From: a virus
Virus record (IMG/VR): IMGVR_UViG_3300012022_000007
Location: 1 to 20,840 of that record
Reading direction: 5' to 3' (one strand)
Length of the DNA stretch: 20,840 nucleotides
This document shows, piece after piece, positions 1,189 through 20,662 of this stretch. The notes beneath the pieces are model-generated. The model was given only the letters and a program-made list of their open reading frames with translations. It was not told where the DNA came from and did no database searches. Both the position numbers and the translations under genes were made by a program. Within the stretch, counting starts at the first letter, position 1. The number at the start of each line of letters is the position of its first letter.

Positions 1189-2350
1189 CTTCACTCCGCG
1201 TCCGCTGCTCGTCTGCTGGCGAGAAATTGCACACGTCTCTTATAAGAGGGACGTGTGCAAAATCGATCGGCTCGGCTTCGGCGTCTGCGTGTCGCGTATC
1301 GAACGCGGCGATTTCGTCCGCGCTTGGCAACTCGCGTTCCGCGTCGGCTGGGCCTTGGGTGAAATCGGGCGAAAAGTGAGTGACATTTGCACAAAGTGGG
1401 TCCGTAACTCCTTTGTCTCCTATAAAAGTGGTGAGACAAATGTCACCCTGGATTATTGTTTCCTCATCAAGAAACTCAGGGTCGATTTGGGCGCTTTGTT
1501 TCTCGATTGGGACAAGTTTTTGCTGAAGGATCGCAATCAACTTACGGACATCATCGGCTTGGAATTTGGCCAGGATCGCATCTGAGAACTCATCGAGGGC
1601 GACGGCTTCCCCTCTGGCGGGCCGGGCAACATCCTTGAAGTACGCTTTGCTGGCGAGCGTGGTAGCGCGGGCATAATCGGAGGTAGACGAATGTGTCCGC
1701 TTTTTCCCTTCCTTCTTTGCCGTGCCATCGAACAGATTCAGGAACTCATCAAGATGAAACTCGATTGTTGATCTGATGTTCTCGTCATGGCATCCGATGG
1801 GACATTCTTTGATGATGTTGTTCAGGAGATCGGAGAGGGCGGGATACCGATACTGTGAAACCTCGTGGGCCGCTGTCTCTGCGGCAGCCAATTGGTGTTC
1901 AATCAAGATCGGATTGCCCGCGATTCCCTGCCAGTCGTTCAGGCGCTTCCGGGCCTTTCTGATTGTGTTGAGAATCTTCTTTTTCGTCTCTTCGGCGGAT
2001 TCGCGCACGGGAGCGGCGACGGCATCAACGAGCCATTCATCAAGGCAGGTTTGCCATTCGGGTAGCTCGAATCCATTCTTGATAATGACCATCTCGGCAA
2101 AGTCAACGCTTGGCGCACCGAGAGCAGACCAGATCATTTTGATAATCTTGGCAACGTGGCGATAGTTCGCCTTCATATGGTCGGATTGTGAAGCGTTGGC
2201 ATCGAGGACGATGGCCGACGATCGTTTATTGCGCTTAGGCAAAGCTGTTGTGATGACGCCTATTGATTTTGTGATCTTTGCGCCACTGTCGTTATGGGTC
2301 TCGTACCGATCGTCAAACTGATATGGGGAGTCAAAATTGTCAGGCTGCAT
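1118..2350 (-). CDS. replication-operon protein of unknown function (410 aa)
   Basis: ATG at 2350 is chosen over a TTG at 2371 because AGAGGG lies six bases upstream of the ATG; it overlaps the end of the primase gene by 11 bases, so the two are surely co-expressed. I see no Walker, helicase or nuclease motif. The middle (about residues 60-290) is predicted mostly helical, with a Lys/Arg-rich helix (ETKKKILNTIRKARKRLNDW). The C-terminal quarter is acidic and low in structure, with two short Cys-containing stretches (DPLCANVTHFSP and IRDVCNFSP) that coincide with strong DNA inverted repeats. Position directly after a PrimPol suggests a primase partner, replication initiator or helicase-loader role; this is inference from context only. 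Confidence 0.8.
   Translation of the reverse strand: MQPDNFDSPYQFDDRYETHNDSGAKITKSIGVITTALPKRNKRSSAIVLDANASQSDHMKANYRHVAKIIKMIWSALGAPSVDFAEMVIIKNGFELPEWQTCLDEWLVDAVAAPVRESAEETKKKILNTIRKARKRLNDWQGIAGNPILIEHQLAAAETAAHEVSQYRYPALSDLLNNIIKECPIGCHDENIRSTIEFHLDEFLNLFDGTAKKEGKKRTHSSTSDYARATTLASKAYFKDVARPARGEAVALDEFSDAILAKFQADDVRKLIAILQQKLVPIEKQSAQIDPEFLDEETIIQGDICLTTFIGDKGVTDPLCANVTHFSPDFTQGPADAERELPSADEIAAFDTRHADAEAEPIDFAHVPLIRDVCNFSPADEQRTRSEDARTRSPFPQESDADLPDWKCPF
1227..1260. repeat. 11-bp perfect inverted repeat inside a coding region
   Basis: TTGCACACGTC at 1227-1237 pairs perfectly with GACGTGTGCAA at 1250-1260, around a 12-base loop that contains the palindrome TCTTATAAGA. It lies in the C-terminal part of the 410-aa gene, at the codons for residues around VPLIRDVCNF. 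A stem this strong inside a gene is unusual and resembles the one at 1380-1446. Confidence 0.8.
1380..1446. repeat. nested inverted repeats inside a coding region
   Basis: GTGACATTTG at 1380-1389 pairs perfectly with CAAATGTCAC at 1437-1446. A second perfect pair, TTTGTCTC at 1412-1419 with GAGACAAA at 1433-1440, shares part of the same right arm, so the two pairings exclude each other. The core GTCTCCTATAAAAG resembles GTCTCTTATAAGAG of the repeat at 1227-1260. Both sit in the acidic C-terminal part of the same gene. Confidence 0.75.
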
Positions 2351-3491
2351 TTCTTGCCCTCTTCTGTCCAAATCCCTTGTTCCCTAAGACTCGCGCAGCT
2401 CTGGAGAAATCACCATTGCATTCGAGCACAGCAAAGACAGCGTGTGGTCTGTAGCCTTGTCCGGCTTCAAACTCAGTTGATGTGGAGAAAACGAGGAAGC
2501 CGCCATCAGGGAATAGTGTGGCGCTGGAATCGTTCTCTGTGTTGGGGTGACGCCAGGACTCACCATATTGACCCTCACCGACGTACACCCAACCGGCGTT
2601 TTCGAGGACTTCGCGGACGTTCCCGCGTTCGTCGAAGTCGTGGCGGCTGCACAGCCAGAAGTCATTACACGCGCGGCATCCGTTCGAACTCGCGACGCGC
2701 TGGAACTCCGGGCGCTGTGGGCGTTCGGCGATCGGTCGGACTGGCTTCGGCGGCATTCGATCGAATGAGCGGGCTACATCAAACAGCACTTCCCTTTCCT
2801 CTGGTGTGATTGTGGGGAGGCGTGAGTAGTCGAGGTTGACGAATCGATACGGCTTGTTCAGTCGATGAATGCGGGCGGGCGAACCGACCGCGCAGGCATA
2901 GCCACCAGACCCACGGGTTTCAATCCGAACTTTCTTCACAACCCATTGGCCGGCGTCGTTCTGGTGCGCCTTGCGGTGGAATCGAGGCTTGCCGAACCGG
3001 TCAAGGATTTGTTTACCGTCCTTATCCTTCGTCGGCTTCAGTTCGATCTCTTCCGGTTTGGCTGGCACTTCGTGAGCGGCAAGCGGTTGGTTTCGTCCGA
3101 TGATCTCGCAGCGGTAGGCGATCTGATAGCCAGGTCTCGGGCTCTCGACGACGCATAGGCGGGCCATCAATCCCGGCGCGCGTTCCTCGACCAGATCGCA
3201 GTAGGGGCGCATCAATTGCCCCTCGTCAATATCGATAATTTCGAGGTTCCCGCTGACCGGGCCGCACACAACAGCGATTCCAAGCGACTCCTCGACGAAC
3301 CATTCCGTTATCTGTTCCTGTCCCGGAATCTCCGATTGCCATTGCTTCCAATAGCGGGCGGGACGTTTGCACTTGATACCGTCCACGTGGAGTGGTACAA
3401 AGGATATTCCCGCTGAAACTAAATTGTTTGCGGCTGACAGACTGTCAGTATACTTATTGAATGAATCTGTTGGGCGTGGTAAGGTGTGCAT
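2340..3491 (-). CDS. bifunctional DNA primase/polymerase (PrimPol, AEP superfamily)
   Basis: It would prime and extend DNA for phage replication. Numbering from ATG 3491 (383 aa): the N-terminal PrimPol domain (about 10-220) carries the metal-binding motif LEIIDIDEG with D87 and D89, a second motif SPRPGYQIAYR at 117-127, and VRIETRGSGGY near 188-198, which corresponds to the third motif. The usual His of motif II (SGGxH) is Gln123 here. The C-terminal part has a Cys/His cluster (CRACNDFWLCSRHDF) followed by a segment of the kind ATLFPDGGFLVFST and a final NGDFSRAARVLGNKGFG, as often seen behind phage PrimPol domains. An in-frame GTG at 3503 is an alternative start; a stop lies directly before it. 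No strong ribosome site is seen for either. Confidence 0.88.
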   Translation of the reverse strand: MHTLPRPTDSFNKYTDSLSAANNLVSAGISFVPLHVDGIKCKRPARYWKQWQSEIPGQEQITEWFVEESLGIAVVCGPVSGNLEIIDIDEGQLMRPYCDLVEERAPGLMARLCVVESPRPGYQIAYRCEIIGRNQPLAAHEVPAKPEEIELKPTKDKDGKQILDRFGKPRFHRKAHQNDAGQWVVKKVRIETRGSGGYACAVGSPARIHRLNKPYRFVNLDYSRLPTITPEEREVLFDVARSFDRMPPKPVRPIAERPQRPEFQRVASSNGCRACNDFWLCSRHDFDERGNVREVLENAGWVYVGEGQYGESWRHPNTENDSSATLFPDGGFLVFSTSTEFEAGQGYRPHAVFAVLECNGDFSRAARVLGNKGFGQKRARNAA

Positions 3492-3510
3492 AGTTTTTGA
3501 CACTTACGAT

Positions 3511-5040: not shown

Positions 5041-5655
5041 ATGAAATGTCAAATCTGCAAACGAACACTGAGCGCAACGGACAGCATCCTAAAAGGCATC
5101 GGGCCGGAATGCGCTGGCAAGTACGCCAACGGCATCCAAGCGGCGGGCTCATCGTTCGCGCAGATCGAAAAGCTTGAAGCTCTCGACGCTCCGACCGTCA
5201 ACCGTTGGATCAGTTGCGCCAAGCAAGCGATTGGACGGAATCGAATTCAAGAGGCAAAGGATTTTATCGCGGCGGCTGAAAAGGCTGCCGCCCTCAATGG
5301 GGGCACAATGACATATTCAGTACTCGGCAACGAGAAAGCGGCGGACGTACTCACGGACAATGATGTAGTGATCGGTAGCGGGCTCGAACTGGAAGAGGCG
5401 CGGCGGGTTGCGGCTTGCGCGCAGCGGTTCGAAGGGTTCATTGCGGCGTGGGTTGTCGAGGACGCGGCGGAACTCAAGCACGTGTTCATTCCGAGCGATG
5501 GCACGGAACCGGCAGAGAGTTACGACGAATTCACTTGCATTTGTGGAATCGTCAATCAGGTTTTTGATTACGCGGGGGAGACTCACCTTCCCTGCGAATG
5601 TGGACAATTGATTATGGTGTCGGAGGCTCCGGCGCCTTTCGCAATGGCAGCATAA
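5041..5655 (+). CDS. early protein with N-terminal Cys motif (DUF6011-like) and C-terminal CxC pairs (204 aa)
   Basis: The start MKCQICKRTLSATDS followed by GIGPECAGKY gives Cys3, Cys6 and Cys24 in the arrangement of small DUF6011-type zinc domains common in phage and mobile-element proteins. The middle is helical (residues 40-90). The C-terminal part holds a second metal-type pattern, C166-x-C168 and C185-x-C187. These suggest nucleic-acid binding or a structural zinc site; no enzyme motif is seen. It is the first gene after the near-consensus early promoter. AAAGGG lies 12 bases before the ATG, a long spacing, but no better start exists. It is followed by a second small Cys-containing gene after 20 bases. 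Confidence 0.8.
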   Translation: MKCQICKRTLSATDSILKGIGPECAGKYANGIQAAGSSFAQIEKLEALDAPTVNRWISCAKQAIGRNRIQEAKDFIAAAEKAAALNGGTMTYSVLGNEKAADVLTDNDVVIGSGLELEEARRVAACAQRFEGFIAAWVVEDAAELKHVFIPSDGTEPAESYDEFTCICGIVNQVFDYAGETHLPCECGQLIMVSEAPAPFAMAA

Positions 5656-11958: not shown

Positions 11959-13935
11959 ATGCCAAGAAAACCGAGACCGAAGCCGCAGCAGCGCACATAC
12001 AATTCAATGTTCGAACCGGCGGCGGGCAGTAATGCTACCCGCATTTCGCGATCACGAAAGATACTCGGCTCACGCGTACAGGAGACCGGCGACCCGGCGC
12101 GAGACGGGGACATCTGGCTTTCACGGCTGGCGAAGACTCGACGCCAGCGGATGGAACAGACGAACGGGGAAAAGGACTGGATGCGCTATTACCAGTGGTA
12201 CGAGGGGCAGGGGCATTGGACAGATAGAGGCGATCCAGGGAAGGGCAGGCAGGCCGCAGACAACGCGAGAGAGACGGCGGTTGTAAACAAGGTGGGAAGC
12301 ATCGTCAATTCAATGGTTCCTTTCGTTGTGAACAATGACATCCGTTTTCTGCTGAAGCCGCGCAAGCCGTCAGAGACAATCTCCGCCGAACTACAGCAGG
12401 CACTGCTTAATTACGAGTGGCGCGAACGCGACATGACGCGATCAGTGAAGATGTGCGTTAGGGACGCGGCGATTATCGGCCATTGCGTCGCGAAGACCGG
12501 TTACACGATCGAGATTGCAGAGGGGCGGGCGAAAGCGGACGGTGAGATTGTTTACGCCGACTACATCCGGAAGGATGCGCCATACATCGAGCGCGTAAAC
12601 CCTCTTAACTTCTTCTTCGATCTGTCGGCGCACGACGGAACGTTACACACCGCGCGCTGGTGCGCAGAGGTTTTCTATGTCCCGCTTTACGATGTGCTGG
12701 GGAACAAGGATTACGACTCGAAAGCGTTGGCATTGATTACAGCGGGCGAACACGTGGCGGTGACACGCTCGGCATTCGCTGGCACGAGTGAATCAGTGTG
12801 GACTGATGCGTTCAACGCGTCGAGCGCGGCACTGCCGGAAGATACGCTTGTCGTTCTGATTGAGATATGGGACAAGAAGTATAAGAACCGGATCATCATG
12901 GCTGACGGCGTTCCTATTCCGTTGCTCTCCGAAAAGTGGCCTTACGACTATCTCGACAATTTCCCCTACGCAATGGCGAATTGGACGGACGTACCGAATA
13001 AGCCCTACGGCATGGGTGTTATGCGTAACGTCGAGGATCAGCAAAACCAGCTCAACCGCATTCGGACATCACAGTTCAATCATATTCGGTCTCATCAAAG
13101 AAAGTTCATCGCACAGACCGGGATCGATAAAGGCGAATTGGAGAAGTTCACCGACGAAGGGGACGGCGCTGTCATCATTGCGGAGAGTACAGACGCAATC
13201 AAGCCGATTCCTGACGCGGCTATGAGCGGAGACTTTCAGCTTATCGAGGGGCGGATTGTAAACGACATCAACGAGGGCAGCGGCGCGGATGGCATCTTGC
13301 AAGGGCAGGCACTGCCAGCGCGAACAACAGCGGGGGAAGTGGGAACACGGGCAAGAATCCAGGGGCTCAAGCTCGACGCGATTGTAGACAACGTTGAATC
13401 CTTCGTTGAGGACTTGGCCGTTCAAATCCTTCACCATCTGAAGGCGTGGCGAACGATTCCCGATGTAGTCGAGATTGTCGGCGCGCAAGGCAATTTCTGG
13501 CGAGAGTACACCAGCGAAGAAATCCAGGCCGACGCGGACGTAGAGGTTCACCACTTCAACGCGCCGAAGGAAGACCCCGGCATCATCAAGAACCAGGCGA
13601 TTCAGATTTTTCAGATGGCAACTCAGGCGCTTCCCGTGCTCGCACAGTCCGGGCCTAACTCGCCGATCGATATGCAAGCGTTGCTCGGTTGGGTTCTCGA
13701 CAAGTTCGGCGAGCGGGATATTGGTCGATTCTTCAAGCCAGCATTGGCACCACGTCCGCCACTGGTCGAGGGCGAACAGCAGAACGCAGGGGAAGGACTG
13801 CCGCCAGCACTGGCCGGGCAATTCGCACCGGCGCAAGCACCAACACAGCCGCAGTTACCAGAGCAACCGGGCGAAGGTCTGACGGTTCAAGATTTACTCG
13901 CGGGGCTGCAAAGCCAATCCCGAATGGTTCAATAA
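11959..13935 (+). CDS. portal protein (658 aa)
   Basis: It forms the dodecameric ring through which DNA enters and leaves the head. It follows the large terminase, with a GGGGGA ribosome site before ATG 11959. Portal-like features are the N-terminal QTNGEKDWMRYYQWYEGQG, the NPLNFFFDLSAH stretch typical of portal wing regions, and YGMGVMRNVEDQQNQLNRIR ahead of the stem helices. The last ~60 residues are rich in Pro, Gln and Ala and probably disordered. The length is close to that of podovirus-type and P22-like portals, larger than HK97-type ones. Confidence is high from position and pattern, lower for the subfamily. Confidence 0.85.
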   Translation: MPRKPRPKPQQRTYNSMFEPAAGSNATRISRSRKILGSRVQETGDPARDGDIWLSRLAKTRRQRMEQTNGEKDWMRYYQWYEGQGHWTDRGDPGKGRQAADNARETAVVNKVGSIVNSMVPFVVNNDIRFLLKPRKPSETISAELQQALLNYEWRERDMTRSVKMCVRDAAIIGHCVAKTGYTIEIAEGRAKADGEIVYADYIRKDAPYIERVNPLNFFFDLSAHDGTLHTARWCAEVFYVPLYDVLGNKDYDSKALALITAGEHVAVTRSAFAGTSESVWTDAFNASSAALPEDTLVVLIEIWDKKYKNRIIMADGVPIPLLSEKWPYDYLDNFPYAMANWTDVPNKPYGMGVMRNVEDQQNQLNRIRTSQFNHIRSHQRKFIAQTGIDKGELEKFTDEGDGAVIIAESTDAIKPIPDAAMSGDFQLIEGRIVNDINEGSGADGILQGQALPARTTAGEVGTRARIQGLKLDAIVDNVESFVEDLAVQILHHLKAWRTIPDVVEIVGAQGNFWREYTSEEIQADADVEVHHFNAPKEDPGIIKNQAIQIFQMATQALPVLAQSGPNSPIDMQALLGWVLDKFGERDIGRFFKPALAPRPPLVEGEQQNAGEGLPPALAGQFAPAQAPTQPQLPEQPGEGLTVQDLLAGLQSQSRMVQ

Positions 13936-14949: not shown

Positions 14950-16068
14950 ATGTCAACTATAAAGGTTCCCGTGGTTGGTTCGGGCATCAACTACGAAGGA
15001 TCAGACAACCAGGGAGTTACGCCAACAACCGGCGCAGAGGGCGGCGGACAACCCGCAACGTCTGTACAGGGCGAATACCAAAGGCCGCAGACACCGGCGC
15101 AACAGTTCAAGCCACAGCCGCGCTATCAGCAGCAAATCGCACGACAGAACGGAAGGGCATCGTTACATGACTTCCATCTGCAACCGGGAGCGCAACCGGC
15201 GGACGGTCAAGTTGAAGATGGCGGGCAGAGAAACAGCTTCCATCCTGACCTCGACCCGGAGAAGTTCGATTTTAGCTTTGATCGCTTCGGGCGATTGCTG
15301 AAGACGCCGAAGGCCGCGCCAGTCGCGACCGCAGAGACCGTAGAGGAAGCACCGGCGGAGGATGTGCCAGACGCAGCGGCGGCAGTCGCAGCCGCGCAAT
15401 CGACACTTGCCGGGCAGCCTACGCCCGGTATGAACGATATGGACGCGCTCAGACAGCACGTCAGCCAATTAACCCAAGTCGTTTTGGGGATGGCTCAATT
15501 ACAGAACGGGCAGGGCGCACAACCGGCACAGTCGGCACAACCCGAAGCACCGGATTATTCGAACATTGATATGTACGATCCGGCGCAAGTCGTAGCGCTG
15601 TCGGAGCGCGCAGCCGAAGCGCGATTCAATAAGCTGATGAAAGAGCAGTTTCAACCGCAGGTAAGCCGCATTGACGAGCAGAACGCGCAGAGCCAGGTAA
15701 ACCACATCATCAGCACCTATGGACGCGCAGCCGTCGAGCAGCGGGCAGAGTTATTGATGGAATTGGCCAAGAGCAACCCGACAAGCAACGTCATTCAGCT
15801 TTGGGACTTGGCGGATAGATTGGTAGGACAGGTTACTACCACGACGAAACCAGCGGTTACGCAACCGCTGACACAAGCCACACGAACGATTACAGCCAGC
15901 CAAGCGGCGGAGAAGGTCGAACAGGCCAAACGTCTCCCCTCAAAAGCTGCGAGCAGTAACAGCGGAGTGACCGGCGCAAGCACACGAAGCGGGCCACCGG
16001 AGAGGATGCTTAAAAACCTCGCCCTTGGTTCGATCGCAGCTTGGAACAGCGTGCAGAATGGGAGATAA
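14950..16068 (+). CDS. scaffold-like head-assembly protein (372 aa)
   Basis: ATG at 14950 has AAGGAG six bases upstream. The protein is rich in Gln, Ala and Pro, largely disordered in residues 1-170, with an FDFSFDRFGRLLKTP stretch, then helical (DALRQHVSQLTQVVLGMAQL and EARFNKLMKEQFQPQVSRID) and with a basic C-terminal tail. Such a composition directly upstream of the major capsid gene is that of a scaffolding protein, which templates the procapsid and contacts the coat through a basic C-terminal helix. No protease motif is seen. It could also be a minor internal head protein. The capsid gene follows after only 6 bases. Confidence 0.75.
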   Translation: MSTIKVPVVGSGINYEGSDNQGVTPTTGAEGGGQPATSVQGEYQRPQTPAQQFKPQPRYQQQIARQNGRASLHDFHLQPGAQPADGQVEDGGQRNSFHPDLDPEKFDFSFDRFGRLLKTPKAAPVATAETVEEAPAEDVPDAAAAVAAAQSTLAGQPTPGMNDMDALRQHVSQLTQVVLGMAQLQNGQGAQPAQSAQPEAPDYSNIDMYDPAQVVALSERAAEARFNKLMKEQFQPQVSRIDEQNAQSQVNHIISTYGRAAVEQRAELLMELAKSNPTSNVIQLWDLADRLVGQVTTTTKPAVTQPLTQATRTITASQAAEKVEQAKRLPSKAASSNSGVTGASTRSGPPERMLKNLALGSIAAWNSVQNGR

Positions 16069-16074
16069 AACCAA

Positions 16075-17076
16075 ATGGGCACAATGCTAAGAACCACGTG
16101 GGGACAGGTAGACGCAACGTCAATGTCCGACTTCTCACGTGCGCTTACTGACAACATCACATCTAATCAGGTTATCCTGTGGATGCTGTCGCAGCTCGGC
16201 GGGATTGTTCCTCGTGGGGGTAAAACAATCGTCGAGCCACTGATTATTGACGATAACGCCAGCGTTCACTGGTATTCGGGATACGATCCGCTCGATATGA
16301 CGAATAACGAGGGGATCACGTCGGCTGAATACGCGTGGAAGCAACTGGCGGGCGTCGCTCAGTTGTCAGGGATTGAGAAGGCGCAGAACGCGGGCAGTAC
16401 GCAGTTGATCGACCTGATGGACGCCAAAGGCAAACAGCTTGGCCTGTCGATGCGGCGCGCTGTGAACCAGGCCATTCCATCGGACGGCAGCGCGGACGGC
16501 GGAAAAGCTCTTGTCGGCTTGCTGTCTGCGGTTGAGAACGGCGATACGTTCACGACCTACGGCACGATCGACAGCGCAACCACGACCAACTGGCAAAACC
16601 AATGGTTGGACGGCGGCGCGTACAGCACAAGCACAAACTTCCTCGACGGGTTGCGGCGCATCATCATGCTTTGCAGCGCTGGCACCGATCGGCCACACCT
16701 CGGGATTACCACACAAACCCTCTACGCCTATTTCCTTTCACTCTTGGAAGCGAAAGAGCAATTCATCCGTGTTGCTACTGATGAATGGATGGCGAACGCG
16801 GGCTTTGAGAACATCGTCTACATGGGCGTTCCGATCACATGGGACGAAAACATGTTGCCGAACACGACGACCGGCAGCACGGACGATGCCCAAGGGCTCG
16901 TGGTTCTGAATCTGGATTACGCCAAGCTCGTGATCATGAACGATTACGAATTCAGCTTCACAGAGCCACAGTCACCGAACAACCAGGACGCCGAAAGCTG
17001 GAAGTGCCTGCTTTACACGAATCTCGTGTTGAGCAATCGCCGCCGTCAGGGACGCGTCAACTACGATACCCCGTAA
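16075..17076 (+). CDS. major capsid protein (333 aa)
   Basis: The N-terminal stretch FSRALTDNITSNQVILWMLS followed by GGKTIVEPLIIDDNASVHWY is the pattern of HK97-fold phage coat proteins of this size: an N-arm, a helix of the type DNxxxNxxLLxxL, then GGxxIxxPL and a tyrosine-rich strand. The middle contains the variable EAYSTSTNFLDGLRRI-type region and a C-terminal VITWDENMLP segment that fits the P-domain and A-domain order. ATG at 16075 lies after GGGAGATAAAACCAA; an internal ATG three codons later is possible. Upstream scaffold and downstream decoration genes support the call. No large N-terminal prodomain is seen. Confidence 0.85.
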   Translation: MGTMLRTTWGQVDATSMSDFSRALTDNITSNQVILWMLSQLGGIVPRGGKTIVEPLIIDDNASVHWYSGYDPLDMTNNEGITSAEYAWKQLAGVAQLSGIEKAQNAGSTQLIDLMDAKGKQLGLSMRRAVNQAIPSDGSADGGKALVGLLSAVENGDTFTTYGTIDSATTTNWQNQWLDGGAYSTSTNFLDGLRRIIMLCSAGTDRPHLGITTQTLYAYFLSLLEAKEQFIRVATDEWMANAGFENIVYMGVPITWDENMLPNTTTGSTDDAQGLVVLNLDYAKLVIMNDYEFSFTEPQSPNNQDAESWKCLLYTNLVLSNRRRQGRVNYDTP

Positions 17077-17106: not shown

Positions 17107-17625
17107 ATGGCTTTTATTGACCAAGGCGTCAACATCACAACCGTTGATTCATCCGCTACATTCCCGCTGGGCACCGAGATTGACGACCCGAGAGGGAACA
17201 GCACGTCAGGCGGGCCGCGCGGATCGAATCGTTTTCGCTACGTCAAGGCGGGTTCAGCGATTTCAGCGGGTAACGCTCTCGTTGTCTCTCTCGCCGACGC
17301 AGACGAACCGAACACCCTTGTCCCGTGTTCAGCCGTTAATCAGGTGACCGTTGCAGTTGCAGAAGTGGCGATTGCGTCGGGCTCTTACGGCTGGGTTCAG
17401 GTGAAAGGAAGACACGCAGGAGCGGTCAACCTCGGCACCATCTCAGCGGGCAACAAGCTCACCACGTCCGGAACCGCAGGGGCCTTTACGACCGTTGCAG
17501 AGGCGGACTCTAACGTTACTTCGACCAAACTGAACGCGGCAATTGCAATGGCGGCGGGCATCGGCGTTATGGCGCTCGATTCCAACGACAGCAACGCGGC
17601 GGTTATCGAAGTTCTCATCAACTAG
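17107..17625 (+). CDS. capsid decoration-type protein (172 aa)
   Basis: ATG at 17107 has AAAGGAG about seven bases upstream, the best ribosome site in the window, as expected for an abundant virion protein. The sequence is Ala, Ser, Thr and Val-rich with short beta strands (NRFRYVKAGSAISAGNALVV and YGWVQVKGRHAGAVNLGTIS, with AGNKLTTSGTAGAF) typical of head-stabilising or decoration proteins next to the coat gene. The N-terminal segment with FPLGTEIDDPRG may be an extended arm. A UUCG-loop hairpin follows the gene. No membrane segment or enzyme motif. Confidence 0.75.
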   Translation: MAFIDQGVNITTVDSSATFPLGTEIDDPRGNSTSGGPRGSNRFRYVKAGSAISAGNALVVSLADADEPNTLVPCSAVNQVTVAVAEVAIASGSYGWVQVKGRHAGAVNLGTISAGNKLTTSGTAGAFTTVAEADSNVTSTKLNAAIAMAAGIGVMALDSNDSNAAVIEVLIN

Positions 17626-17648
17626 GCCGCAAGCCTGAAAGTAATGGC

Positions 17649-17668
17649 GGGGAGGCTTCGGCCTCTCC
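17649..17668 (+). terminator. UUCG-loop hairpin after the decoration gene
   Basis: GGGGAGGC at 17649-17656, loop TTCG, GCCTCTCC at 17661-17668: eight pairs with one G-T wobble and the extra-stable UUCG loop. The tail GTCTCATT lacks a proper T run, so read-through is expected; it would reduce expression of the enzyme gene behind the abundant coat genes. Confidence 0.6.
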
Positions 17669-17689
17669 GTCTCATTCCGATTACAAACG

Positions 17690-19054
17690 ATGAACTACAA
17701 CACAACAGACATTGACGGATTTCTGAAGGATGCAAAGGGCATCATTCATATAGGCGCGCACACCGGGCAGGAACGCGACACATACAGATCATACGGCTTG
17801 CCTGTCATCTGGATTGAAGCGCAACCAGCCATTTTCAAAGAACTGGTTGCCAACATCGCAGACGGTTACCCCGGACAGATCGCATTCAACTATCTGGTGA
17901 CCGATGTTGACGATCAAGAGTATCAATTCGGCATCGCGGACAACGACGGGATTTCAAGCTCCATCTTCCCGTTGAAGGATCACAAGTTAGTTTGGCCGCA
18001 CATCGACTATATCGGCCATCGTTCTTTGAAATCGAACACGCTCAAGACCATTGTTGAACGCGAGGGAATCGACATGTCCTTGTATGACACCCTTATCCTC
18101 GATGTGCAGGGCGCGGAACTGAAGGTGTTGGAGGGCGCAAAGGACATCATCGAACAGTTCCGATTCATCAGATGCGAGGCGGCAGACTTCGAAATCTATG
18201 AGGGATGTTGCCAGGATCACAACCTTGACGCATTTACCCGGTTCTACGGGTTCACGCGGGCGGTAACGTGGTCTATGAAGGAATCGACGCCAGGGCGGGG
18301 AATCTTCGAAATCCTCTATGAGTCAATCAAGACGCGGAAGAATACACAGATAATCGACCCGGAGACCGGTAACGAACTGTGGGTAAAGGTTGGCGTCTTA
18401 ACTTCAGTCCCTCGGCTCGGGTTTCAGATTCACGACACGATCATGCATAACGCGTTCGGCGGGAAGGGCTACCCCATTGTGAAGGTGGGCGGCGCGTTCT
18501 GGGAACAGTCGATGCAAAACGGATTCAACCGATTGATTAAGCTCGGTTGTGATTGGGTGATCACGGTTGACTATGACTCAATCTTTCACCCGGACGACAT
18601 TTCAGAAATGTTGTTGATGGCCGCACGCTATCCCGACGCGGACGCCATATCAGGATGGCAGGTGAAGCGGCAGGGGAACGGCGAAACCCTCATGGGATTT
18701 AAAGACGCGGACGGGAATTTCATCTCACTTGTTCCGCGCGAGATGTTCGAATCAGAAGTAACTGAGGCAGATCACACAGTGTTTGGCCTTACGCTCATCA
18801 AGACGGCATCGTTAGTGAAGATGCCGAAGCCTTGGTTTCAGTCTTTCCCGAACGCGCAAGGCGAATGGTTACCGGGCAAGACGGACGCGGACGGTTATTT
18901 CTGGAAGAAGTGGAAGGAAACGGGGCTGACCATCTACGCGGCAAATAACGTGCAGATCGGACACCTTGAGGAATTCATCCGATGGATTGACCGTGACTTC
19001 AACGTCTCAACTCAACCATTGAATGACTTTTATCAGAAGGGGAGACCCTTTTAG
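17690..19054 (+). CDS. FkbM-like methyltransferase fused to a GT-A glycosyltransferase domain (454 aa)
   Basis: Two enzyme domains in one frame. Residues about 1-215: an FkbM-type SAM-dependent methyltransferase, with HIGAHTGQE (20-28) as the SAM-binding loop, VIWIEAQPA for the second strand and LDVQGAELKVLEGAK (137-151), the FkbM hallmark (DVxGxExxVLxG). FkbM enzymes O-methylate sugars and polyketides. Residues about 228-454: a glycosyltransferase of GT2-like type with DWVITVDYDSIFHPDD, in which D294-Y-D296 is the metal/nucleotide-sugar DxD motif, and later WKKWKETGLTIYAANNVQIG. No signal or membrane segment, so cytosolic. ATG 17690 lacks a ribosome site. A product might be a methylated glycan on virion or host surface; the substrate is not visible. 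Confidence 0.8.
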   Translation: MNYNTTDIDGFLKDAKGIIHIGAHTGQERDTYRSYGLPVIWIEAQPAIFKELVANIADGYPGQIAFNYLVTDVDDQEYQFGIADNDGISSSIFPLKDHKLVWPHIDYIGHRSLKSNTLKTIVEREGIDMSLYDTLILDVQGAELKVLEGAKDIIEQFRFIRCEAADFEIYEGCCQDHNLDAFTRFYGFTRAVTWSMKESTPGRGIFEILYESIKTRKNTQIIDPETGNELWVKVGVLTSVPRLGFQIHDTIMHNAFGGKGYPIVKVGGAFWEQSMQNGFNRLIKLGCDWVITVDYDSIFHPDDISEMLLMAARYPDADAISGWQVKRQGNGETLMGFKDADGNFISLVPREMFESEVTEADHTVFGLTLIKTASLVKMPKPWFQSFPNAQGEWLPGKTDADGYFWKKWKETGLTIYAANNVQIGHLEEFIRWIDRDFNVSTQPLNDFYQKGRPF

Positions 19055-19144: not shown

Positions 19145-19354
19145 ATGAACGTACTGAAAGGCACGAGAAAAGCAAAGAATCCAACAAGCGGCTTGGTTTC
19201 TCCGCAGCTTCCCTTGACTCGCGGAAAGGCGAAGACGGCGAAGTCTCAGGGCTCGGGCATCGTCGGCGGCTATCCGCTCGACTTTGGTTGCAGCGGCGGC
19301 AAGAAAGTTGGCGCAAAGGCTGCCGCTCGTCAGAAACCTACCAAGATGTACTAA
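19145..19354 (+). CDS. small basic Gly/Lys-rich late protein (69 aa)
   Basis: ATG at 19145 has GGAGAA seven bases upstream. The protein starts MNVLKGTRKAKNPTSGLVSP and has many Lys, Gly and Ala residues, with one Cys; no clear secondary structure. It lies between the enzyme gene and a structural gene and could be a minor DNA-binding virion protein. The 90 bases before it contain no clear signal. Function unknown. Confidence 0.55.
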   Translation: MNVLKGTRKAKNPTSGLVSPQLPLTRGKAKTAKSQGSGIVGGYPLDFGCSGGKKVGAKAAARQKPTKMY

Positions 19355-19363
19355 GGGAGAATT

Positions 19364-19942
19364 ATGGCCAGCAAAAACAATCAACTTCGAAGACAGGGAA
19401 ACCAGATCGTCTTAACCGATGACGCGGCTTTGCCTGTCCCCGAGACCTTGCCTGATGTCGCAATCGAGCAGGAACTTGACGACTCAGACGCCGCTCGGAT
19501 TCTGCAAATCCACGCGGAGACCGATCAACAGTTCATGGCGCGCACCGCAGAGATGCAGCTCAATGCACGCGACCGGACGAACATGGTGCAGATCACAAGG
19601 GTAATTGATCCGCACGAGGGGCGTCTTGCCACGATCCGGAAAATCTGGGTTGAGGTGACACCGAGTCTTTGCATTGATTGCGGCTACGATGCGGCGGAGG
19701 CTATCGGCTTCGGCAGGCCGCATCCGATCAGCGGGAAAACCGGATGGCACAGCATCGCGGAAGACTTGCAATTTGACGTGAATCGAACCGTGAGGGAGTT
19801 CGCGCTTCAGACGCTCGAACGACACAAGATTATCCGTCACGCTGCGGTCAGACAGGACAAAATCAAAACGCGTGCTGAAGTCAAAAACCTCAGAAAGCGC
19901 TCGGCTCTACCGGAAGGATTCGTTACCAATCCCAAGGTGTAA
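19364..19942 (+). CDS. late protein of unknown function with CxxC (192 aa)
   Basis: ATG at 19364 has GGGAGA six bases upstream. The first 70 residues are acidic and helical; the rest contains RKIWVEVTPSLCIDCGYDAA (a single CxxC) and GKTGWHSIAEDLQFDVNRTV, with a basic C-terminal tail. No known domain is recognised. Its place between the capsid block and the adaptor suggests a minor virion or head-completion protein. Confidence 0.7.
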   Translation: MASKNNQLRRQGNQIVLTDDAALPVPETLPDVAIEQELDDSDAARILQIHAETDQQFMARTAEMQLNARDRTNMVQITRVIDPHEGRLATIRKIWVEVTPSLCIDCGYDAAEAIGFGRPHPISGKTGWHSIAEDLQFDVNRTVREFALQTLERHKIIRHAAVRQDKIKTRAEVKNLRKRSALPEGFVTNPKV

Positions 19943-19957
19943 AGCCAGGAGAATACT

Positions 19958-20662
19958 TTGGCAACAGTCAATTCAATTGCACTCGACTTGCTCCGTGAGT
20001 TTGATTTCAGCACCGATGATTCAGGCTTAGTGTCGCAAGTCGAGCGATGGGTAAACGATGCGTTGGACGAAATCGCTGTAGCCACGGACTGGAACCACTT
20101 CCACACGCGCGGCACGATTCCGACCGTCATTGCTCAAGCGCAATACACATTGCCAGCGGGCGCAAGAGAAATCATTCAATTGCGCTACATCGCCACGGGC
20201 GAACCAATCGAGCATTGGACAGTTCAAGAGGCGGCAAGGCGGGGCGTCATTCTCGAAACAGCGGGGCGGGCTCGGGCTTGGCTGGAAGATGGAATTCTCC
20301 TGTCCGGATCGAACAACCTTTACCGCATCCGTCTCTATCCCGTCCCGGATGCCGTCGTGAGTATCGAGGCGGAGTATTACTACCATCCTTCAGACGTGGC
20401 GAGTGGTTCAGTCCTACCTGTCCAAGATCAACATATCGTGCTCGTGAAAGATCGGGTTCGGGCGTACATCTTGGAAGAGGGCGAAGACCAGCGGTATGAA
20501 GCCGCAGACCGAGCGCAGCGGCGATTTGAGAGCAATCTTGCAAAGCTCGTGAAGCGAGAGAAGCACAAAGTAGCCGCAAACCTCGTGCTCAAGCCGTCCG
20601 ACATTCGAAGGACACGCAGGCCGGAAGCGATGTTTGACGCGTCGCATTACAGCAATCCATAA
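19958..20662 (+). CDS. head-tail adaptor (gp6/gp4-like connector, 234 aa)
   Basis: The start is TTG at 19958 with AGGAG seven bases upstream; the sequence after it (MATVNSIALDLLREFDFSTD) fits the family start. The pattern ERWVNDALDEIAVATDWNHF, then ARAQYTLP-like AQAQYTLPAGAREIIQLRYI, a central GEPIEHWTVQEAARRG and the final long helix RAQRRFESNLAKLVKRE matches phage adaptor proteins that cap the portal at the head-tail junction (T7 gp11 / P22 gp4-type function). The domain order is helical hairpin, beta domain, then C-terminal helices. Its location downstream of portal and coat genes agrees. Tail genes should follow beyond the window. Confidence 0.7.
   Translation: MATVNSIALDLLREFDFSTDDSGLVSQVERWVNDALDEIAVATDWNHFHTRGTIPTVIAQAQYTLPAGAREIIQLRYIATGEPIEHWTVQEAARRGVILETAGRARAWLEDGILLSGSNNLYRIRLYPVPDAVVSIEAEYYYHPSDVASGSVLPVQDQHIVLVKDRVRAYILEEGEDQRYEAADRAQRRFESNLAKLVKREKHKVAANLVLKPSDIRRTRRPEAMFDASHYSNP

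Follow-up and report, generated by a model that had tools for sequence, protein, structure and literature searches.

The window, as the whole stretch of DNA analysed here is called, comprises the 20,840 nucleotides of the IMG/VR virus record IMGVR_UViG_3300012022_000007, and on its plus strand it carries the head genes of a phage. The portal protein (11959-13935; SU10/P22 portal Pfam families, phrog_156) is followed by a probable scaffold protein of 372 residues (14950-16068), assigned by its position and low-complexity composition, and by a major capsid protein (MCP) of the Mx8/Mx9 type (16075-17076), which matches phrog_9953 (E 7e-62) and is 33% identical to its counterpart in phage Mx9 (E 2e-41); a single-protein search of viral contigs with this MCP gave no match. 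Directly 3' of the MCP gene lies the gene for a decoration-like capsid protein of 172 residues (17107-17625) with homologues in the contigs L006 and L146, whose pairwise identity of 32% to the 'major virion structural protein' of Mx9 is not significant by phmmer. Folding places an 11-bp stem with a UUCG loop (17646-17671) in the gap after it, and then comes an open reading frame of 454 codons (17690-19054), the subject of this work. It had originally been placed between the decoration protein and the head-tail adaptor. The decoration gene does precede it, but two small genes lie before the adaptor: one for a basic protein of 69 residues (19145-19354; open reading frame with a positional counterpart in L006) and one for a 192-residue protein of the head-tail region (19364-19942; positional counterparts in L006 and L146). 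The SU10-type adaptor itself (PF24175, E 3.5e-17) is encoded at 19958-20662. Outside the head genes, the window encodes a Prim-Pol domain protein on the minus strand (2340-3503; PF09250, E 9e-9), likely a phage primase, and on the plus strand a protein with an N-terminal DUF6011 zinc-binding-like domain (5041-5655).

As described in the original prediction, the 454-residue frame contains FkbM methyltransferase (MT) motifs followed by the DYD motif of a GT-A glycosyltransferase (GT). The FkbM domain (Methyltransf_21; residues ~18-188, nucleotides 17741-18253) bears HIGAHTG at residues 20-26 (nucleotide 17747) and LDVQGAE at residues 137-143 (nucleotide 18098), and its scores against PF05050 (E 8.8e-11, 42.7 bits, cut-off 22.7) and the NCBIfam model TIGR01444 (E 1.3e-11, 45.2 bits, cut-off 37.7) both exceed the curated cut-offs, which makes it a member of that family; the window member differs in being fused to a GT. 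The motifs [IV]HxG...GQE and DxQGAE, together with E43, are invariant across the window, L006 and L069. The second domain (residues ~228-454, nucleotides 18371-19051) contains DYD at residues 294-296 (nucleotide 18569), DADGYFW at nucleotide 18884 and GH at 18959. Against PF00535 (Glycos_transf_2) this half reached 16-17 bits, under the cut-off of 23.3, and by sequence it is not a GT2 member; PDB sequence searches with each half returned chance matches or none. It does match phrog_1574 ('unknown function') with an E-value of 6e-9. That profile has 240 positions, the size of the GT only, without an MT, and the match suggests that PHROG 1574 is a GT-A family.

Structure prediction gave a clearer picture. 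In a model of the window protein built from 35 aligned window and locus sequences, the GT-A half is confident (pLDDT mostly 82-98 over residues 231-454) and the middle of the FkbM half is poor (pLDDT 32-57). The best PDB fold match of this model is 2c0n (A197 of STIV; E 4e-9, TM (target) 0.71), and the GT-A fold proposed from the motif is thus present in the model. Next come human lysyl hydroxylase LH3 and the polypeptide GalNAc-Ts, among others; these and COLGALT1, also a fold neighbour of the GT, are protein glycosyltransferases, and together with the viral A197 they support glycosylation of a virion protein. A second model, of the relative L054 with its different MT, has high confidence over its whole length (mean pLDDT 87), and its fold matches comprise class I methyltransferases as well as glycosyltransferases. 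The residues expected of a GT-A enzyme (DxD, acidic base and C-terminal His) are conserved: D294, D296, D399 and D401 are invariant and H425 nearly so among 35 relatives, and in a 39-sequence alignment, whose numbering becomes that of the fusion protein by adding 214, D80, D82, D185 and D187 are invariant and H211 is kept in at least 90%. The GT domain is therefore barely visible by sequence and clear by predicted fold. The same one-frame fusion occurs in the independent contigs L006 (60% identical), L069 (49%) and L146 (45%), which rules out an assembly join. The reading frame is a genuine two-part enzyme gene, in which a sugar-type MT is joined to a GT.

Relatives of the GT domain are numerous in metagenomes. 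A profile search of IMG/VR found first 64 and then at least 589 stretches carrying them; tblastn found none in 50,697 phage records, where the FkbM part did match some. Nor did either of two pattern scans, which covered 84,980 prokaryote genomes, find any, although they required near-exact short motifs such as DADIYFW, where the window itself reads DADGYFW, and absence in them is not proof. The relatives are phage head-cluster genes, as had been anticipated in preference to host genes at a prophage border. No description of the MT-GT fusion family was found in the open-access literature searched, and the family, which is large and occurs in uncultivated phages, is apparently undescribed.

The domain models built here were applied to 129 distinct contigs, all of them metagenomic and chosen with a bias to GTs near that of the window; 105 of the 117 genes uncut at their 5' end are MT-GT fusions. 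The most frequent architecture (86 genes) joins the GT to a COG4627-like MT, a label coined here for the class with the KLNLGGG motif (Methyltransf_11/23 in Pfam, phrog_6636 in PHROGs). A CmoB/DUF1698-like MT precedes the GT in 12 genes and an FkbM domain in three, the window included; four combine two MTs with the GT, in three orders, and the GT stands alone in 12. Pfam matches support these assignments. Two further fusions came from a later scan: a fourth FkbM-GT (L146) and an FkbM_B-GT (L150). The pairing of both activities, which had been thought unusual, is thus the rule within the family, with three kinds of MT. Related to this, an FkbM-like MT adjoins the fusion as a separate gene in L007, L008, L104, L106, L107, L133 and L138, which is a further link between the two activities. 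In the contig L068 (73-1929) the order is permuted within one frame: GT first, then an FkbM-like MT and then a COG4627-like MT.

A GT tree of 85 rows needs at least 13 changes of architecture. The CmoB-like fusions fall into a single clade with full support. Those with FkbM, joined by L068, make up a supported group nested in a supported clade of COG4627 type. The MT domain is an exchangeable module on one GT lineage. In a focused tree the members with Mx8-type MCPs (window, L006 and L146) group together (94/94, not starred) and are nested in relatives with HK97-type heads. The simplest reading is one gene transfer into the Mx8-type head together with an earlier swap of the MT domain; through that one transfer the gene would have come to occupy the identical slot in two unrelated head types. 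Both domains are under purifying selection in the relatives: in nine pairs dN/dS was 0.05-0.32 for the MT parts and 0.03-0.17 for the GT parts, the saturated window-L006 pair being left out.

The position of the gene is nearly constant. Of the non-redundant loci, 67 have 2.5 kb or more of upstream sequence; 62 of them carry an MCP gene no farther than 2.5 kb upstream of the gene, and 60 a decoration-like gene no farther than 1.5 kb upstream, which supports a recurrent place directly after the decoration gene. PHROG tallies agree with these counts: phrog_5707 is immediately upstream in 41 of 77 cases, the head-tail adaptor phrog_442 is downstream in 37 of 77, and two genes upstream (n = 67) the major-head families phrog_617 and phrog_10 occur in 48 and 46, as overlapping sets. 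PHROG 5707, of unknown function (e.g. L002:441-884), stands almost always between the MCP and the MT-GT gene and is probably a decoration protein of the head. In the cultured relative Mx9 the genes follow the order of the window (MCP, decoration and following genes) but the fusion is missing; only the Mx9 MCP is significantly similar by phmmer. The gene has in this respect the character of a moron; a consensus scan found neither a sigma-70-like promoter nor a plus-strand terminator flanking it. The claim that it was added to the late operon as an extra is upheld by the gene order of Mx9 and by the tree, which suggests entry from another head type, but the hairpin that had also been invoked is no sign of it, for reasons given below.

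With respect to the donor, ten contigs encode a homologue of GDP-mannose 4,6-dehydratase (GMD) no farther than about 7 kb from the MT-GT gene, and in several of them (L109, L118, L099) the two genes are direct neighbours; Pfam E-values are 4e-143 for L107 and 4e-111 for L065. Inside the head cluster, GMD genes lie beside or near the fusion at L107:7513-8580 and L065:9368-10417 and in L109, L118, L126, L105 and L099. Besides, a nucleotidyltransferase, sugar-kinase-like by eye, is encoded directly downstream of the MT-GT gene at L036:8716-10080, with a homologue at L051:1250-2335. These neighbours point to GDP-deoxyhexose or similar donors in the phages that carry them, and the GMD genes support a role in glycosylation. 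In the window itself no sugar-nucleotide gene was recognised; its donor would be supplied by the host or by the missing part of the genome. The association of a GT with structural or sugar-nucleotide genes, as expected of virion glycosylation, is thus observed in both forms, with MCP genes beside 62 of the 67 loci and GMD genes in ten contigs.

With respect to the acceptor, the GT trees track those of the decoration proteins best (mirror-tree rho 0.58) followed by MCP (0.44) and the adjacent adaptor (0.32), and this modestly favours the decoration protein; its advantage over the MCP is itself modest, not being larger in 5.8% of subsamples. These figures come from a tree-distance version with the adaptor as control, a first identity-based version having given a larger effect. 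Serine plus threonine amount to 22.5% of the decoration proteins versus 13.7% of the capsid proteins, which is a weak pointer because such folds are often rich in both residues. Joint movement of decoration protein and enzyme was also considered. It is strong between the window and L006 (identity 58% for decoration, 60% for enzyme, 36% for MCP) and fails between the window and L146 (59%, 45% and 55%, respectively), and it is not used as main evidence.

Taken together, these observations lead to a reading that is held with slightly more confidence than doubt: the fusion would act in the cytosol, adding a sugar to a virion protein (most likely the decoration protein) and methylating that sugar. 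The soluble two-domain enzyme would be a late product of the infection. Its GT-A domain at the C-terminus, with a divalent metal and a nucleotide-sugar, would transfer a sugar to the decoration protein encoded just upstream or, alternatively, to the capsid protein, and its N-terminal FkbM domain would use S-adenosylmethionine to O-methylate the transferred sugar. With exchangeable MT modules, related phages would complete one kind of glycan in different ways. What the analysis establishes directly is the identity of the domains, the predicted fold, the conservation of catalytic-type residues, the position, the exchange of MTs and the purifying selection in relatives; from sequence and models we infer the catalytic activity, the donor, the acceptor, the order of reactions and the benefit to the phage.

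Viral enzymes with comparable tasks have been described. In PBCV-1, the GT-GT-MT polypeptide A064R has been shown experimentally to build and O-methylate the end of the major capsid protein glycan (PMC9614988). A064R (with A061L) resembles the fusion as a virus-encoded single polypeptide with a GT-A glycosyltransferase and a SAM methyltransferase, and the chlorovirus also encodes a GDP-mannose dehydratase; however, it belongs to a eukaryotic virus, acts on N-glycans and has the order GT-GT-MT, whereas that of the window is MT-GT. A064R was absent from the PDB sequence matches and from the best 50 fold matches listed, and the fusion does not qualify as a member of its family. A197 of STIV, for which glycosylation of the STIV capsid protein has been proposed (PMC4187194), is likewise a viral GT-A protein and the best fold match, but it comes from an archaeal virus, is a single domain without MT, and has a putative activity. 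In mycobacteriophages (Che8, cluster O; Freeman et al. 2023), phage-encoded GTs modify capsid and tail tube proteins (PMC11256854, PMC11600133), and in cluster O an O-methyltransferase gene adjoins the GT genes (PMC11600133). Unlike the fusion, these systems keep MT and GT in separate genes, and in Maravista, a relative of Che8, the glycosylation genes lie near the 3' end of the genome, whereas the window fusion lies in the head operon. The MT-GT family may work like the systems of PBCV-1 A064R and the mycobacteriophages, to which it appears by the tests made not to be homologous.

Several alternatives have to be weighed. It is unlikely, but deserves attention, that the enzyme alters a glycan on the surface of the host (LPS, capsule or glycolipid), blocking superinfection or changing the receptor, with its place in the head cluster reflecting late timing only. 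Phage GTs that change the O-antigen are well known, bacterial glycan pathways contain FkbM and COG4627-type MTs, and lysogenic conversion is thinkable since integrase genes are present in seven of 16 carrier contigs (L006, L036, L109, L126, L127, L138 and L105), from which part of the family would be temperate. Despite these integrases, the pattern scan found no carrier in prokaryote genomes. The position of the gene is tied to MCP and decoration genes in two head types, whereas the usual place of lysogenic-conversion genes is close to an attachment site or away from the virion operon, and the fusion protein has no membrane segment (highest 19-residue hydropathy 1.04). A capsid or decoration protein is therefore favoured over host glycans as the target. 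That the substrate is not the decoration protein but a tail protein, a receptor-binding protein or more than one virion protein seems quite unlikely: cluster O mycobacteriophages, with an O-methyltransferase gene and three GT genes, modify both capsid and tail tube (PMC11600133), but the MT-GT gene is nearly always found with capsid and decoration genes, not with tail genes, and the adaptor trees match the GT trees most poorly. It is very improbable that one or both domains are non-catalytic and serve for structure or binding in the head, as the weak sequence match to GT families might suggest, given that the DxD, the second acidic motif and the C-terminal His are conserved, the MT motifs are intact, purifying selection in relatives is strong and in most lineages the MT has been swapped for other MT families, not lost. 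Hypermodification of DNA bases is hardly credible: glycosylated and methylated DNA does exist in some phages, but FkbM MTs are sugar-type O-methyltransferases, the known phage DNA glucosyltransferases are GT-B enzymes, the GMD neighbours supply deoxyhexoses, and the gene lies in the head cluster, away from replication genes.

Glycosylation of the virion protein by the fusion enzyme, the preferred reading, has a wider form. Phages of the MT-GT family probably equip their virions with a methylated sugar. An evenly balanced case can be made for the full proposal that, in uncultivated phages, one fusion enzyme supplies the capsid with a methylated glycan, the GT being kept while unrelated MTs are swapped singly, paired or reordered to diversify the surface glycan, and the gene entering one and the same slot when it jumps from one head type to an unrelated one. 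Few systems of phage virion glycosylation are documented so far; if the proposal is true, uncultivated phages would commonly glycosylate their capsids and methylate the sugar, gene order alone would be enough to detect this, the replaceable MT module would offer a natural series for studying capsid-glycan variation, PHROG 1574 would acquire a function and one would be suggested for the decoration-like PHROG 5707.

The gap before the fusion gene also has features of its own. The UUCG hairpin and the missing ribosome site noted originally were both found. The 91-nt stretch that contains the stem folds at -28.4 kcal/mol (z -3.3); hairpins stand at the same place in most loci of the family, z being below -3 in 64% of the 45-125-nt gaps before the MT-GT gene versus 12% of the other gaps in the same loci (Mann-Whitney p 7e-11). 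A T-rich tail lies 3' of the stem in L124 and L136, not clearly in the window. Mx9 and a Bradyrhizobium phage, both without the fusion, have a hairpin after the gene that follows the MCP gene (L141:5927-6012 in Mx9; also L142:6253-6320), which rules it out as a mark of insertion, contrary to what had been supposed. Because of its presence in these phages, the hairpin is probably a conserved end signal or transcription attenuator of the capsid genes. Of the 13 translation starts tested, that of the fusion is the sole one without a Shine-Dalgarno sequence, its anti-Shine-Dalgarno duplex being +0.3 kcal/mol versus -3.3 to -11.8 for the other 12. A gene placed just past the capsid-gene hairpin and, in the window, lacking this sequence would fit an enzyme made in catalytic, not structural, amounts. 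In L006 the fusion starts with a TTG that overlaps the stop codon of the decoration gene and has a fair Shine-Dalgarno sequence.
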